Below, piece by piece: positions 16,139 to 24,612 of a stretch of DNA of 64,000 nucleotides (position 1 is the first letter of the stretch; the number at the start of each line of letters is the position of its first letter). This stretch comes from Natronorubrum tibetense GA33 (GTDB taxonomy: Archaea > Halobacteriota > Halobacteria > Halobacteriales > Natrialbaceae): NCBI RefSeq assembly GCF_000383975.1, contig NZ_KB913017.1, positions 2,035,527 to 2,099,526 of the forward strand, written 5' to 3'. The translations under genes were made by a program, and so were the position numbers. The notes beneath the pieces were generated by a model, which saw only the letters and a list, made by a program, of their open reading frames with translations, did not search any database and was not told the origin of the DNA.

Positions 16139-17209
16139 TCACTCGGACCGTCGGTTTTCGACGCTGTCGAGCGCCTCGCTCGCTCGTCGGACGGCGTCCT
16201 CGAGATCCGGCCCGAGCGGGGAGCCGACGACGATACCGTCGACGTACTCGAGCGCGGCTTCGAACCGGTCGGCGATGGTCTCGGTCGTCCCCGCGATACA
16301 GAAGGCGTCGATCATCGCCGGTGTGACGTGACCGAACGCCTCGTGCAGATTCCCCTGCTCTAAGGCGTCGCTGACCGCACTCGCAGCCTCGCGGTCGATA
16401 TCGTGGCGCTCGAGGACGGGTTCGGCCGCCCCGCCGGCGATGAACGCGACGGGCGGCCGGGCCGCCTCGCGGGCCTCGGTTTCGTCGCCGGCGACGCTCA
16501 CGCTAGCGAACGCGAGCGACTCGAATTCGCCGTCTCGCGAGTCGCTGCGCTCCTCGCTCGCTCGTTCCGAGGCGCTCTGCGCCTCGCGCTCCTCCAGCCC
16601 CTGCTCGATTTCGCCCGCGGCCCACTCGAGGTCCCGGGGATGTGCGGCGTTGATCAGCACGCCCTCGGCGTGTTTCGCGCTCATCCGAAGCATGTGCGGT
16701 CCCTGTGCGCCGACGTAGGTCGGGATCTCTTCCGAGGGCGGCTCGATGTTGAGCGACGCGTCCCGCGCGGTGAACGTCCCCTCGTGGGTCACCGTCTCGC
16801 CGTCCCAGAGATCCTGCGCGAGTTTGAACGTCTCGAGGACGCGCCGGAGGGGGCTGTCGCGCTCGATTCCGAGGTTCGCGAGCGAGGAGCGGTCTCCGGC
16901 TCCGACGCCGAAGACGGCTCGTCCGTCGCTCACCTCGTCGATCGTCGCCGTCTGGGCGGCGAGTTTCACGGGGTGGCTCTCGTAGGGGTTGACGACGCCG
17001 GGTCCGAGGCGAAGTTCGTCGGTGGCGTCTGCCATCCGCGAGAGCGCGACGAACGGATCGCGGTTGAAGTAGTGACTGCTCGCGAAGGCGATATCGAACC
17101 CCTCGTCCTCCGCCAACGCCGCCAGTTCGGCGACGCGCTCCGTGGGGTGTTCGGGTGTCAGTTCGATGGCTCGAGTCGCGCCGTCGGTCGGTGTGGTATT
17201 TTTGGTCAT
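16139..17209 (-). CDS. LLM-class F420-dependent oxidoreductase (Mer-like)
   Basis: A protein of 356 aa with a luciferase-like TIM-barrel fold. It opens IELTPEHPTERVAELAALAE and has the family segments RLGPGVVNPYESHPVKLAAQ (about residues 70-90) and FGVGAGDRSSL, close to the methylene-H4MPT reductase (Mer) group. A hydrophilic stretch rich in Ser/Glu/Arg (about residues 210-235) is inserted compared with the core family. Its start overlaps the CofE stop by one base, so the enzyme is co-produced with the ligase that adds glutamate to its cofactor F420. The substrate is not defined; TIGR04024-type proteins are the likely relatives. Confidence 0.88.
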   Translation of the reverse strand: MTKNTTPTDGATRAIELTPEHPTERVAELAALAEDEGFDIAFASSHYFNRDPFVALSRMADATDELRLGPGVVNPYESHPVKLAAQTATIDEVSDGRAVFGVGAGDRSSLANLGIERDSPLRRVLETFKLAQDLWDGETVTHEGTFTARDASLNIEPPSEEIPTYVGAQGPHMLRMSAKHAEGVLINAAHPRDLEWAAGEIEQGLEEREAQSASERASEERSDSRDGEFESLAFASVSVAGDETEAREAARPPVAFIAGGAAEPVLERHDIDREAASAVSDALEQGNLHEAFGHVTPAMIDAFCIAGTTETIADRFEAALEYVDGIVVGSPLGPDLEDAVRRASEALDSVENRRSE

Positions 17210-17979
17210 CAGTCGTCGAACCTCCAGTTCCGCAGCGCCTGCCGCACGAGGTCGTCCTCGACCGCTCTGAACAGTTCGTCGCTGCCCTCGTGGTCGCCAA
17301 AGTCCCAGTCGCGGACGACGACCGCGGGCGTCCCGCCGGCTCCCTCGCCCGTCACGAGGTTCGCGGCCGAGGACAGTTCGTCGACCACGGACTGGACGGT
17401 GACGCCGAGTTCGTGGCCATCGCGGTCGAGTTCGCCCCGCCAGTCCCGGCTCGCAGGCATCCCCGCCCAGCCGAGGGCAACCCCGCGCTGGCCGTGGCGG
17501 AACGGCCGCCCGCAGGTGTCGGTCACGATGACAGCGACGTCCTCGATCCCGCGCTCTGTGAGCCCCGATCGAATCCGTTCGGCGCTCTCAGTTGGCTTCT
17601 TGGGCAGCAGCAGAATATCGTGATCCGGCACGTTCGAGCGATCGATCCCCGCGTTCACGCAGATGTGGCCGAACCGCGTCTCGGTCAGCAGGAACGGACA
17701 GTCGATCAGTAGCTCCGTGCTCTCCTCTAAGACGGCCTGTGCGAAGCGCGGGTCCTTCTCCTCGTCCGCCACGTCGGCGATCCGGTCGGCGATCTCTTGT
17801 GCTCGGCCGCTGACCGGGTAGTCCTCGAGATTCGCCACTCGGCCCTCCGTCTTCGAGACGATGGTGCTCGCGACGGTGAGCACGTCGCCGGGCTCGAGAG
17901 CCGCCCGATCCGCGACGAGTTCGGCGATGTCGTCGCCGGGACGGATCTCGGGCAGATCCGCCACTGGCTCCAGTTCCAT
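17209..17979 (-). CDS. cofE: F420-0:L-glutamate ligase CofE
   Basis: A protein of 256 aa, full length for the archaeal enzyme. It makes gamma-glutamyl F420 by GTP-dependent addition of glutamates. Conserved blocks are TIVSKTEGRV (about residues 40-50), CVNAGIDRSNVP, LPKKPTESAERIR, and VTDTCGRPFRHGQRGVALGW (about residues 152-171). The gene overlaps a F420-dependent oxidoreductase. Confidence 0.95.
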   Translation of the reverse strand: MELEPVADLPEIRPGDDIAELVADRAALEPGDVLTVASTIVSKTEGRVANLEDYPVSGRAQEIADRIADVADEEKDPRFAQAVLEESTELLIDCPFLLTETRFGHICVNAGIDRSNVPDHDILLLPKKPTESAERIRSGLTERGIEDVAVIVTDTCGRPFRHGQRGVALGWAGMPASRDWRGELDRDGHELGVTVQSVVDELSSAANLVTGEGAGGTPAVVVRDWDFGDHEGSDELFRAVEDDLVRQALRNWRFDD

Positions 17980-20506: not shown

Positions 20507-22638
20507 TTGCTCACCTCCGTCTCATCCGCCGCTCGACTCATCACCAGCGTGCCGTCCTCGAGGATCTCGCCGCCCCAGTTCGGCGGGACGACGGTCGTAC
20601 TTTCGGCCTGCTCGAGGATCGCCGGCCCCGAAATCGACGCGCCCGACGCGAGCCGATCCCGGTCGTAGACGGTCGTCTCTCGAGGCTCGACACCGGTGCT
20701 TGGGAAGTGTGCGTCTCGGGAGCCGAGGCGGGCGTCGCCCGTTCCCTCGTGGCGGACGGTCGGCTCCGTTCCCGGAACCGTCGCCGTCGCGCGGAGGTTG
20801 ACGACCTCGAGCGATTCGTCCATCGCGTAGCCGTAGGCTTGTTCGTGGGCCGCGTGGAAGCGCTCTGCGACTGCAGTCGCATCGAACGACTCGTCGACGG
20901 GAACGGTCAACTCGAAGCTCTGACCCGCGTAACGGCAGTCCGCAGCGCGTTCGACCTGTGCAGCGTCACGGTCCGACGCGTCCGCGAGCACGTTCGCGAC
21001 GAGGTCGTCGTAGACGGACTCGAGTTCCGCTGCATCGGCTGTTTCAAGTCCGACACCGACCGTCCGAACGGCATCGTAGCTCTCGTCGGCCGCGAGCAGA
21101 CCGAACGCGGAGAGAACGCCACCCGGCCGCGGAACGACGACGCGATCCACCTCGAGCGACTCGGCCAGCGCGGCGGCGTGCATCGGTCCCGCGCCGCCGA
21201 AGGCGACGACGGCGAACTCGCGGGGATCGTGACCCCGTTCGACCGTCACCGCGCGGATCGTCCGCGTCATCGTCGCATTCGCGACCCGGTAGACGCCCCG
21301 TGCGGCCTCGAGCGCGTTCTCGAGGCCCGCCTCGTTGGCGAGTCGCTCGAGGGACGCCTGCGCTGCGTCGACGTCGAGCGTCATCTCGCCGCCGAGTGCG
21401 GTCTCGGGGCCGATGTAGCCGAGGACGACGTTGGCGTCGGTAACCGTCGGCTCGGTGCCGCCGCGGCCGTAGCAGGCGGGACCGGGCTCTGCACCCGCCG
21501 AGCGCGGGCCGACCCGGAGCGCGCCCCCAGAATCGACCCACGCGATCGACCCGCCGCCCGCGCCGACGGTGTTTACGTCGACCATCGGCGTTCGGATCGG
21601 GAGCCCTGCGATCTCGGCGTCGGTCGTCCGCTCGGCCTGGCCGTCCCGGACGAGGCTCACGTCGCTCGAGGTGCCGCCCATGTCGAAGGTGACGAGGCCC
21701 TCGACGTCGGCGTCGTCGACGGTCGCAGCGGCACCGACGACGCCCGCGGCGGGACCGGACAACGTCGTCGTCACGGCGTGCTCTCGAACGGTTTCCGGGT
21801 CGGCGATGCCACCGTTTGCCTGCATGATCCGCGGTGCCGGGATTCCGGCGTCCTCGCTCTCCTCGACCAGCCGACCGACGTAGCGGTCGATCGCCGGCCG
21901 AACGTAGGCGTCGACCGTCGTCGTCGACGTCCGTTCGAACTCGCGGAACTCCGCGAGCACCTCGTGGGACGCTGAAACCGGGACTGCGAGTTCCTCGCGC
22001 AGAATCTCGGTGACGAGCCGTTCGTTCTCCGAATCGGCGTAGGAATGTAACAGACAGACGGCGACAGTTTCGACGTCCGACTCCTGTAGGGTCGCCGCGA
22101 GGTCACGAATCTCGTCGGGATCGACCGGTTGCTCGACGTCCTCGGTCGTCGTCCGCTCTGCGACCTCGAACCGTTGCTGGCGAGGGACGAGTGGATCCGG
22201 CTTCTCGGCCTCGAGATCGTACAGATCCGGCCGGTTCTGGCGGCCGATCTCGAGGACGTCCCGGAACCCCTCGGTCGTGACGAGCGCGGTTTTCGCGCCG
22301 CCGCGCTCGAGGAGCGCGTTGACCGAGACGGTCATCGCGTGGGCGAAGGCGTCGATTTCGCCGGGATCGATGTTCGCCCGCTCGCAGGCCTTTTCGATGC
22401 CCTCGAGCACGCCGAGCTGTTGGGGATCGGTCGTCGGCACCTTCGCGGTGACGAGGCGGTCGTCGACGGTCAGCGCGACGTCGGTGAAGGTGCCGCCGAC
22501 GTCGACCCCGATCCTGGTGTCGTCCCTCTCGGGCGTCGCCCGTTTTTCAGTTCGGTTTGCGTTTACGTGTTTGTCTGGCGTCCCCGTGTGTTCGTCTGGC
22601 GTCTCTATGCGTTCGTCTCGTGCGTCTGTCTCGTTCAT
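20503..22638 (-). CDS. Hydantoinase/oxoprolinase subunit A
   Basis: A protein of 711 aa. The ATP-binding actin-fold start is IGVDVGGTFTDVALTVDDRL (about residues 44-63), and the middle has VTFDMGGTSSDVSLVRDG and VGAGGGSIAWVDSGGALRVG. All are typical of HyuA and bacterial 5-oxoprolinase A. The first 42 residues are an added polar tail containing tandem repeats (ETPDEHT GTPDKHV) created by 21-bp DNA repeats. An internal start near the ATP-binding domain is possible, but no good ATG lies there. Confidence 0.93.
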   Translation of the reverse strand: MNETDARDERIETPDEHTGTPDKHVNANRTEKRATPERDDTRIGVDVGGTFTDVALTVDDRLVTAKVPTTDPQQLGVLEGIEKACERANIDPGEIDAFAHAMTVSVNALLERGGAKTALVTTEGFRDVLEIGRQNRPDLYDLEAEKPDPLVPRQQRFEVAERTTTEDVEQPVDPDEIRDLAATLQESDVETVAVCLLHSYADSENERLVTEILREELAVPVSASHEVLAEFREFERTSTTTVDAYVRPAIDRYVGRLVEESEDAGIPAPRIMQANGGIADPETVREHAVTTTLSGPAAGVVGAAATVDDADVEGLVTFDMGGTSSDVSLVRDGQAERTTDAEIAGLPIRTPMVDVNTVGAGGGSIAWVDSGGALRVGPRSAGAEPGPACYGRGGTEPTVTDANVVLGYIGPETALGGEMTLDVDAAQASLERLANEAGLENALEAARGVYRVANATMTRTIRAVTVERGHDPREFAVVAFGGAGPMHAAALAESLEVDRVVVPRPGGVLSAFGLLAADESYDAVRTVGVGLETADAAELESVYDDLVANVLADASDRDAAQVERAADCRYAGQSFELTVPVDESFDATAVAERFHAAHEQAYGYAMDESLEVVNLRATATVPGTEPTVRHEGTGDARLGSRDAHFPSTGVEPRETTVYDRDRLASGASISGPAILEQAESTTVVPPNWGGEILEDGTLVMSRAADETEVSK
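22569..22631 (-). repeat. Three 21-bp tandem repeats in hyuA N-terminus
   Basis: The unit with core GTTYGTCTGGCGTC repeats with a 21-base period beginning at 22569, 22590 and 22611, the third being degenerate. It encodes seven-residue repeats of the form ETPDEHT/GTPDKHV near the hyuA start. Slippage would add or remove whole repeats without changing frame. Confidence 0.6.
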
Positions 22639-22666: not shown

Positions 22667-23911
22667 TTAGAACGGCAGGAAGCCGAATAATACCTCGAGG
22701 CCGTCGCCGACGATCAGGACGTCGTAGAGCGTTTGCACCCCGATCCCGACAACGACGATCGTGACGAGCCCGCCGAGGACGTTCTGGAGGGTCGTGTTCG
22801 TGTGTTCGCCGAGCAGGTCGTCGTTGTTCATCGCGTAGATGAGGAAGACGGCGAGGATCGGCAGCAGGAGCCCGTTGGCGACCTGTGCGAAGACGATGAC
22901 CTCGACGGGGTTGTAGTCCAGCGCCGAGAAGACGATGCCGACGGCGAGGATCGTCATCCAGATCGCACGGAACCGCGTCGATTTCAGGTCGCGCTCCCAG
23001 CCGAGCGCACCAGCGGTCGCATAGGCTCCCGCGAGGGGCGCGCTCATCGCACTCGTAAAGCCGGCGGCGAAGAGCCCGATCGCGAAGAACGTCAGCGCGT
23101 AGCCGCCGAAGACGGGCTCGAGTTGGTCGGCCATCTCGCCGACATCGGCGATCTGCGTTCCTTCGGGGAACACCGCGGCGGCCGTGACGACGATCGAGGT
23201 CGTGATGAGCCCGCCGACGATGATCATTCCGATCGTGTCGGTGCGACACTCCGCGAGGTCGTCGGACCCGTTCCAGCGCTCCTGGACGGTGCTCGCGTGC
23301 AGGAACAGGTTGTAGCCGACGACGGTGGTTCCGACGAGGCCGGCGATCAGGTACGCCGAGCCTTCGGGAACCGTCGGCACGAGACCGCCGCCGAGTGCGG
23401 TGATATCGGGCTGAACGATGATCGCGTTGAGCACGAACGCGAGGCCCATGACGACGACGAGGCCGATGAAGACCCGCTCGATCAGTTTGTAGCTGCCCGA
23501 CCACAGCAGGGCGGCGGCGACCAGTCCGATGACCGGCCCCCAGATGTTCTCGCTAATGCCGGTGATCGTCGCGAGGCCGGCCGCACCGCCGACGATGTTC
23601 CCCGTCTGGAACGCCGCCGTCCCGATCCCGATCGCGCTCACGACGAGCGCGATGGTCACCCCCTTTGCGATCGGGTTCGAGAACTCGCCGCGGAACGCCT
23701 CGCCAAGTCCCTCCTTCGAGATCAGTCCCAGTCGCGCGCTCATCTCCTGGAGGACGATCGTTGCCAGGATCGAGAACGCGATCGTCCACACGAGCAGGTA
23801 CGCGTACTCTGCCCCAATGACGCTCGCCGTCGTGACGGTACCCGGACCGACGAACGCCGCGGCAACGAGCGCGCCCGGTCCGATCGATTTGAGTCTGTCT
23901 ACAACACCCAT
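22667..23911 (-). CDS. Nramp-family transporter lacking metal motifs
   Basis: A protein of 414 aa from ATG 23911 (MGVVDRLKSIGPGALVAAAF) with about eleven membrane helices. In TM1 the canonical DPGN is replaced by GPGT (AAFVGPGTVTTASVIG), and in TM6 the canonical MPH is replaced by VGY (TTVVGYNLFLHAS). These residues bind the divalent metal in true Nramp proteins, so a Mn/Fe function is doubtful. It lies 28 bases upstream of hyuA, in the same direction. A role in importing an organic substrate of HyuA/B is inferred. Confidence 0.88.
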   Translation of the reverse strand: MGVVDRLKSIGPGALVAAAFVGPGTVTTASVIGAEYAYLLVWTIAFSILATIVLQEMSARLGLISKEGLGEAFRGEFSNPIAKGVTIALVVSAIGIGTAAFQTGNIVGGAAGLATITGISENIWGPVIGLVAAALLWSGSYKLIERVFIGLVVVMGLAFVLNAIIVQPDITALGGGLVPTVPEGSAYLIAGLVGTTVVGYNLFLHASTVQERWNGSDDLAECRTDTIGMIIVGGLITTSIVVTAAAVFPEGTQIADVGEMADQLEPVFGGYALTFFAIGLFAAGFTSAMSAPLAGAYATAGALGWERDLKSTRFRAIWMTILAVGIVFSALDYNPVEVIVFAQVANGLLLPILAVFLIYAMNNDDLLGEHTNTTLQNVLGGLVTIVVVGIGVQTLYDVLIVGDGLEVLFGFLPF

Positions 23912-24066
23912 GATGTATGTCCACACACATCCCTCTCCGAAGACCACAAAAGGGTTGTTAAGAATCGAACACACGGACTCGAGTATTCCCGTACGGGTGA
24001 TGTTCGGCGTATGAACTCGTATGAACGTCGGCCGTCCGTCGACGAATTCGTTCTCCGAGCGTGGAA

Positions 24067-24612
24067 TCAGCTACTCGAGCGCTCGGTCACGATCACCTTC
24101 GAGACGCCCTGCTCGATCTCGATCTCCGTCGGTAGATCGACCGTGCTGCGCTCAAGAAAGCGCGTCATGAACCAGCGGATCGCTTCCGAGGGGAAGACGA
24201 TGTGGTAGACATCCTTCTCCTCGCTTCGCACATCCAGAAAGCCACAGAACGAGAGCCACTCGAGAACCTCGCCGACACTCTCGAACCGCTGGGCGTACTC
24301 CCGGGCGTGGTAGTCCGAGACTCGATCCGCCGCATCGACGAACGCCGGATCGGGGTCGCCGCCGGCGTAACAGTGCTCGAGGAAGGCGTGGAGGAAGTCG
24401 ACGTCCAGCAAGACGTGTTCGCCCGAGGTGAGCATCTGATAGTACTGTTCTAAGTTGTCGCTCGGCGAGCCGCTCGCCGCCTCGAAGTTCGCGGCGTAGA
24501 AGGCGAGCGCACGCCGGACGAGTTCGCTTTGTCCGTTTCCAGTCTCGGCGAGGAGCGTCTCGAGGGCCGCCTGCGAGTCGTCGTCGAGCGAGACCGTGAC
24601 GCGCTGTGTCAT
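24067..24612 (-). CDS. Ribbon-helix-helix transcription regulator
   Basis: A protein of 181 aa. The N-terminal 45 residues (TQRVTVSLDDDSQAALETLL ... SELVRRALAFY) form a CopG/Arc-type ribbon-helix-helix DNA-binding domain. The remaining 135 residues form a mixed alpha/beta domain with FLHAFLEHCY and FPSEAIRWFMTRFLE, probably ligand-sensing. Just upstream of, and codirectional with, the hydantoinase operon, separated by 155 bases, so it may regulate that operon. Confidence 0.85.
   Translation of the reverse strand: MTQRVTVSLDDDSQAALETLLAETGNGQSELVRRALAFYAANFEAASGSPSDNLEQYYQMLTSGEHVLLDVDFLHAFLEHCYAGGDPDPAFVDAADRVSDYHAREYAQRFESVGEVLEWLSFCGFLDVRSEEKDVYHIVFPSEAIRWFMTRFLERSTVDLPTEIEIEQGVSKVIVTERSSS

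Follow-up and report, generated by a model that had tools for sequence, protein, structure and literature searches.

A gene in the 64,000-nucleotide stretch of Natronorubrum tibetense GA33 DNA analysed here (hereafter, the window) encodes an Nramp-fold carrier that has neither metal-binding motif of the true Nramp transporters and whose probable role is to import 5-oxoproline (pyroglutamate, a cyclised glutamate), or a closely similar lactam, as substrate of the HyuAB enzyme from the same operon. The fold, the missing metal motifs, the conserved residues in their place, the operon, the clade to which the carrier belongs and the neighbours of its members are established by the analysis, and it is the neighbours that point to this substrate. 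Genes for such carriers occur in hundreds of genomes, where mntH or "Nramp family divalent metal transporter" is a common annotation; the clade appears to be closely related to the true metal transporters and mislabelled in many genomes. Motif-free Nramp-related proteins were already known, as was the need for YcsG/PxpT in growth on 5-oxoproline; new here are two associations of the one clade, a strict one with hyuAB in haloarchaea and another with pxpABC in bacteria, and the substrate hypothesis to which they lead. In the open-licence literature, we found neither a transport or enzyme assay for any member of the carrier clade nor a paper assigning it a substrate.

The carrier is read on the minus strand from an ATG at 23911 to 22667, stop codon included; this start is favoured over one at 23974 by a conserved promoter-like element 35 nt before the ATG (Table 1). 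The Pfam Nramp profile (PF01566) matches the protein with 325 bits (gathering cut-off 29.8) over profile positions 1-356 of 357, PDB sequence matches also place it in the Nramp family, and its AlphaFold model (pLDDT 92.6) superposes on DraNramp (6c3i) with a Z score of 49.0 over 374 residues at 2.4 A, with the LeuT-fold architecture of Nramps present. The carrier is unambiguously an Nramp-fold protein. Outside the Nramps, the amino-acid carriers AgcS (Z 30.6) and AdiC (Z 30.0) are among the best structural matches of the model, a point in favour of 5-oxoproline.

Table 1. Features of the carrier operon and of its upstream region, by position in the window.
Feature	Position	Strand	Basis and remarks
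Asp/Glu racemase-superfamily enzyme (AMDase / maleate isomerase-like), 246 aa	18060..18800	-	Pfam Amdase, Asp_Glu_race; 4-nt overlap with hyuB
hyuB, hydantoinase/oxoprolinase B subunit, 569 aa	18797..20506	-	Pfam Hydantoinase_B, 699 bits; 4-nt overlap with hyuA
hyuA, hydantoinase/oxoprolinase A subunit, 711 aa	20503..22638	-	Pfam Hydantoinase_A, Hydant_A_N, Hydant_A_C
Nramp-related carrier, LeuT fold (P0001), 414 aa	22667..23911	-	Pfam PF01566 and AlphaFold model
TTVVGY, TM6, codons 195-200, replacing A-x-x-M-P-H	23312..23329	-	Alignment to DraNramp
GPGT, TM1, codons 22-25, replacing DPGN	23837..23848	-	Alignment to DraNramp
Conserved promoter-like element, TTCTTAACAACCCTTTTG	23947..23964	-	35 nt before the ATG; ortholog upstream regions compared
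Predicted operator, TTCATACGAGTTCATAC, tandem TTCATAC repeat with a 10-bp step	24009..24025	-	Upstream of the carrier; conserved in ortholog upstream regions
CopG/RHH regulator with conserved C-terminal domain	24067..24612	-	Upstream of the carrier; Pfam RHH_1

Canonical Nramp/MntH proteins (DraNramp, BfraNramp) share this fold (Z up to 49) at about 25% identity and have DPGN in TM1 and MPH in TM6, whereas both motifs are absent from the carrier, as judged from its sequence, its alignment to DraNramp and the ortholog alignment. GPGT aligns with DPGN and VGY with MPH, gap-free nearby, and no acidic residue is left at the TM1 site. These replacements had been reported in the preliminary description, and they stand in the DraNramp alignment, the fold match and 101 orthologs. 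Since the alignment is gap-free and the model superposes, metal motifs at a shifted position can be ruled out. Of 391 genomes searched within the class, 112 have orthologs, at 55-100% identity. In the haloarchaeal orthologs (window protein counted), G22, P23, G24 and T25 are each present in 101/101, and V198 and Y200 in all 100 that are readable at those positions; across 51 bacterial and archaeal members of the clade, G22, P23, G24, G194, T195, T196, V198 and Y200 are all invariant. Because the replacements are almost invariant in the 101 haloarchaeal orthologs, they were selected rather than left by decay, and the open frame likewise rules out a pseudogene; selection at this site favours something different from the classical metal ligands. 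Residues 101-102 in TM3 covary across the ortholog loci, being F-Q in 49 and Y-E in 47, and Y-E is the majority form among the aligned bacterial members. The window's genome encodes three PF01566 proteins, all without DPGN and MPH.

The carrier gene was described as lying 28 bases ahead of hyuA, in an operon with hyuB and a racemase-like gene, and this is confirmed: hyuA starts at 22638, 28 nt downstream, and all four genes lie on the same strand, the remaining junctions being 4-nt overlaps, with Pfam matches for each. Hydantoinase_A and Hydantoinase_B subunits are thus encoded together, as in the two-subunit 5-oxoprolinase (HyuAB). The best NCBIfam match of HyuA is caprolactamase, far below cut-off, and none of the NCBIfam equivalogs reaches its own. 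In the PDB, HyuA is matched best by an entry labelled N-methylhydantoinase, and the nearest entries for HyuAB are named N-methylhydantoinase and 5-oxoprolinase. That the sequence of HyuA does not assign it to one substrate counts against 5-oxoproline. The third enzyme has maleate isomerase as its best PDB match and keeps both conserved Cys residues, in the segments YACTTGS and SCTNY, which are conserved in 67 sequences. Four HyuB genes are present in the window's genome, and only the one in the window adjoins an Nramp gene.

To place the operon in its wider setting, 100 ortholog loci with flanks were examined (L042-L141). Directly downstream of the carrier lies hyuA in 96 of these haloarchaeal loci, with hyuB in 95 and an adjacent racemase-superfamily gene in 66. 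One of the four loci without hyuA ends with its contig (L052). L140 has the racemase-superfamily gene with the carrier but lacks hyuAB, and L095 has hyuAB on the opposite strand, displaced from the carrier. By comparison, hyuA, hyuB and racemase neighbours are all missing from the 20 loci of haloarchaeal Nramp-related cousins with about 30% identity (L142-L161). These cousins belong to other haloarchaeal clades without metal motifs, with GPGS / TTFSIA and GSGS / TTALWP at the two sites, and in four of the GPGS loci a divergent luciferase-like gene lies 330-430 nt upstream. Two further facts count against 5-oxoproline, as pxpA and pxpC are present elsewhere in the host genome and pxpA co-occurs with the carrier cluster in haloarchaea, being found in 27 of the 112 genomes with the cluster versus 24 of the 279 without it (odds ratio 3.4). 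Mutual exclusion, which would have spoken for replacement, was not found, and co-occurrence above chance is a poor fit to a simple replacement of PxpABC by HyuAB; pxpA is missing from 85 of the 112 genomes with the carrier.

An expression study bears on the same gene cluster. RNA-seq of Hfx. alexandrinus at 0.5 mM silver gave log2FC values of 2.43, 2.30 and 2.23 for the consecutive genes mntH, hyuA and hyuB (PMC10694973), an order that matches another strain of the species (cf. L353) and the carrier operon; their joint rise speaks for the 5-oxoproline reading. Gene order and names make it most likely that this mntH (cds117) is a carrier ortholog, so that the study's reading of it as a manganese transporter responding to silver is doubtful. 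A published nitrogen-response link in Hfx. volcanii was dropped, as the sole hydantoinase match there is a different gene.

The clade extends to bacteria, where its partner is a different enzyme. A pattern scan of genome contigs (AAF[IV]GPG or [IV]GTT[VI]V[GP]YN) found at least 590 relatives, from which 78 bacterial loci were kept, and bacterial members of the clade are 42-61% identical to the window carrier. Among the matches listed, pxpA, a gene of the ATP-dependent 5-oxoprolinase, lies within 1 kb of the carrier in 31 of the 78 loci, from several phyla, often in one tight carrier-pxpA-pxpB-pxpC run; pxpB and pxpC were confirmed in the loci tested, and NCBI models name the PxpABC proteins beside bacterial carriers 5-oxoprolinase. 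In the bacterial pxp operons tested, the three downstream genes are those of PxpA, PxpB and PxpC, with no racemase-superfamily enzyme among these three. Two Bacteroidetes loci have the carrier followed by a 1252-aa fused HyuA-HyuB of 5-oxoprolinase architecture. About 45 of the 78 loci among the matches listed, mostly from marine Gammaproteobacteria, have no ring-opening enzyme adjoining, which counts against 5-oxoproline. Against bias in the 78-locus list, whole genomes were also searched, blind to context, with the window protein as query; of the clade members so found, 29 of 30 from Bacteroidota and 6 of 8 from Bacillota have pxpA and/or pxpB adjoining the carrier, versus 0 of 18 Bacillota relatives from the Nramp family with about 30% identity. 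Overall, hyu or pxp neighbours occur in 0/38 more distant Nramp-family loci, haloarchaeal and Bacillota combined. A Pantoea pxp neighbour annotated as an MFS transporter (L166) was dropped, as it gave no alignment with the Nramp motifs. Since unrelated ring-opening enzymes, PxpABC on the one hand and split or fused HyuAB on the other, share one carrier clade, the simplest common factor would be 5-oxoproline. An organic substrate (hydantoin, oxoproline or similar) had been proposed for the window protein, and the proposal is supported and narrowed by the pxpABC neighbours of bacterial clade members, which make 5-oxoproline the leading candidate.

Phylogenetic trees group the carrier with motif-free members that sit beside oxoprolinase genes. 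The clade with GPGT / TTxV[GP]Y is supported at 100/96, or at 98/96 with long branches removed, in two trees, and the haloarchaeal carriers form one group nested within it; a position of this group next to pxp-linked Bacillota members has modest support (92/81) and is seen in the first tree only. The whole clade groups with NRMT and canonical Nramps at 89/90, which is not firm. Motif-free Nramp-related proteins are already known from earlier work (PMC12873925, PMC9606685); the group is probably older and is regarded as paraphyletic with respect to metal Nramps (PMC12873925). The preliminary description spoke of motifs that had been lost, which is probably wrong, as it implies a metal-binding ancestor that the published phylogeny does not support (PMC12873925).

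The closest functional parallel is YcsG/PxpT of B. subtilis and C. glutamicum, which, like the carrier, matches Pfam Nramp without DPGN and MPH and, like bacterial members of the carrier clade, is encoded beside pxpA. Relatives of YcsG/PxpT, which we recognised by their pxpA neighbours, likewise have Gly-Pro-Gly in TM1 and Gly-Tyr in TM6 (GPGF / GTVGGY). They are nevertheless only about 24% identical to the carrier and form a separate, fully supported group (100/100), and their partner is PxpABC, whereas that of the haloarchaeal carrier is HyuAB. A position of the carrier inside the YcsG/PxpT clade is unsupported by the trees; a sister placement is allowed, as joining the two groups was not rejected by the AU test (p 0.214). 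One Bacillota genome (G391, L221) has both carrier types, a clade member and a YcsG-like protein, each with pxpA/pxpB genes of its own alongside. C. glutamicum cannot grow on 5-oxoproline without PxpT (PMC13274462), so an Nramp-family protein can fill such a role. The carrier clade also shares G22, T25, T195, V198, Y200, F/Y101 and N105 with the SLC11 orphan outgroup (Cellier; Ray et al.), to which the cited SLC11-outgroup literature assigns no substrate. Cellier's outgroup-mimicking substitutions were D to G, N to T, A to T, M to V and H to Y, together with A to Y and G to N in TM3 (PMC10606218), and by this residue signature Cellier's outgroup sequences would be the carrier clade itself.

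Within 600 nt upstream of the carrier, a CopG gene is found in 88 of the 100 haloarchaeal ortholog loci. The only significant Pfam match of the window's regulator covers the RHH part, and its structure model, built from three sequences, is poor (pLDDT 58.5). H66, H102 and C123 are present in 95/95 sequences of the regulator and H75 in 94/95, a set that is compatible with a metal or haem site and could bind metal. In the DNA between regulator and carrier, the 10-bp TTCATAC pair recurs in 45 of 101 ortholog upstream regions, and 88 of the 101 have one copy or more; over 200 shuffles of these regions, the pair appeared in none and a copy in 3.5 regions on average. The exact tandem site occurs once in the genome, and the one further site at one mismatch lies in a seemingly transposase-rich stretch and was judged irrelevant. 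The tandem repeat is likely the operator of the neighbouring CopG gene.

From these features we infer a substrate, a direction of transport, a mode of binding, an enzyme activity and a role for the repressor, as follows. The Nramp-related (SLC11-outgroup) LeuT-fold carrier would bring in 5-oxoproline, HyuAB would open its ring using ATP to give glutamate, the racemase-superfamily enzyme would act on a stereoisomer or derivative, and a repressor of CopG type, encoded next to the carrier, would control the operon by way of the tandem TTCATAC repeats. At the proposed binding site, Gly stands where the TM1 Asp would be, so the charge needed for holding metal, which an anion would be repelled by, is gone; the carboxylate and lactam would be held by the TM6 threonines together with backbone amides from the unwound stretch GPGT, with Tyr200 packing on the ring. 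This binding model draws on general knowledge of amino-acid carriers of the LeuT fold.

The main rival to this reading, which we consider unlikely, is that the carrier imports a divalent metal (Mn2+ or Mg2+) through a non-classical site, is co-expressed with HyuAB because enzymes of this type need metal, and is under metal-sensing CopG control. The His and Cys residues of the adjacent regulator would fit such control, as would the TCATAC repeats, which resemble the NikR half-site. Two motif-free precedents also favour it: YcsG, encoded with pxpABC, was reported as an Mn2+ importer that raises cellular Mn and was renamed MntG (PMC10448178), and EleNRMT (PDB 7qia) transports Mg2+ (PMC8806188). 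EleNRMT has the same fold as the carrier (Z 45.4; about 27-29% identity), but NRMT forms its own supported group, apart from the carrier clade (support 98/96), and keeps the TM1 Asp in its signature DxxG-TxxA/T (PMC8806188), which the GPGT-TTxVxY of the carrier clade (GxxT-TxxV) fails, and an NRMT-type Mg2+ site was rejected. Against metal import stand also the TM1 site without an acidic residue, the loss of growth on 5-oxoproline without PxpT (PMC13274462) and the way in which the carrier tracks unrelated ring-opening families across phyla, which a common organic substrate fits more naturally than a common cofactor. The carrier also differs from canonical Nramps in its neighbours, which are enzymes; beside canonical plasmid copies metal-dependent regulators are seen. 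A metal role had earlier been called unlikely; an organic substrate is indeed the better reading, but the YcsG report (PMC10448178) and the regulator's His/Cys set make that dismissal less sure and count against 5-oxoproline.

Ranked below metal import, and in our view improbable, is import of hydantoin, N-methylhydantoin or another lactam or imide, with HyuAB as a hydantoinase or lactamase and the third enzyme as a hydantoin racemase. HyuA and HyuB find matches not only in oxoprolinase but also in models of N-methylhydantoinase and caprolactamase, the racemase-superfamily gene with both Cys kept is adjacent in 66 of 100 loci, and the genome has pxpA and pxpC separately, all of which would agree with it; yet it needs a substrate switch at entry into haloarchaea, given that bacterial carriers of the same clade sit with PxpABC, named 5-oxoprolinase by NCBI models, and the racemase gene is missing beside a third of the loci. 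That third of loci, with hyuAB and no third enzyme, also speaks against a carrier that serves the maleate isomerase-like enzyme, moving its substrate or product of dicarboxylate type and not the substrate of HyuAB, a reading that we regard as very improbable. It could draw on the closeness of the third enzyme to maleate isomerases in the PDB and on the gene arrangements of L140 and L095, but these are two loci only, and the tested bacterial pxp operons have no maleate isomerase-like enzyme among the three genes downstream.

If the 5-oxoproline reading is true, the metal-transporter annotation would be corrected, a likely function would be given to the Nramp-superfamily branch called an orphan outgroup in the literature, and haloarchaeal HyuAB, commonly named hydantoinase, would include a two-subunit 5-oxoprolinase; the origin of the metal site on an organic-anion carrier could then be tested directly. 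More tentatively, and with somewhat less than even weight, we suggest that the motif-free clade comprises widespread 5-oxoproline carriers, that metal binding was installed later on a carrier of amino-acid derivatives, and that haloarchaea acquired the carrier from bacteria, HyuAB becoming its partner in place of PxpABC.

In the window, the operon is followed by genes for a coenzyme F420 glutamate ligase and an F420-type luciferase-family protein (16139-17979, minus strand); 29 of the 100 haloarchaeal ortholog loci have cofE no more than 8 kb downstream.
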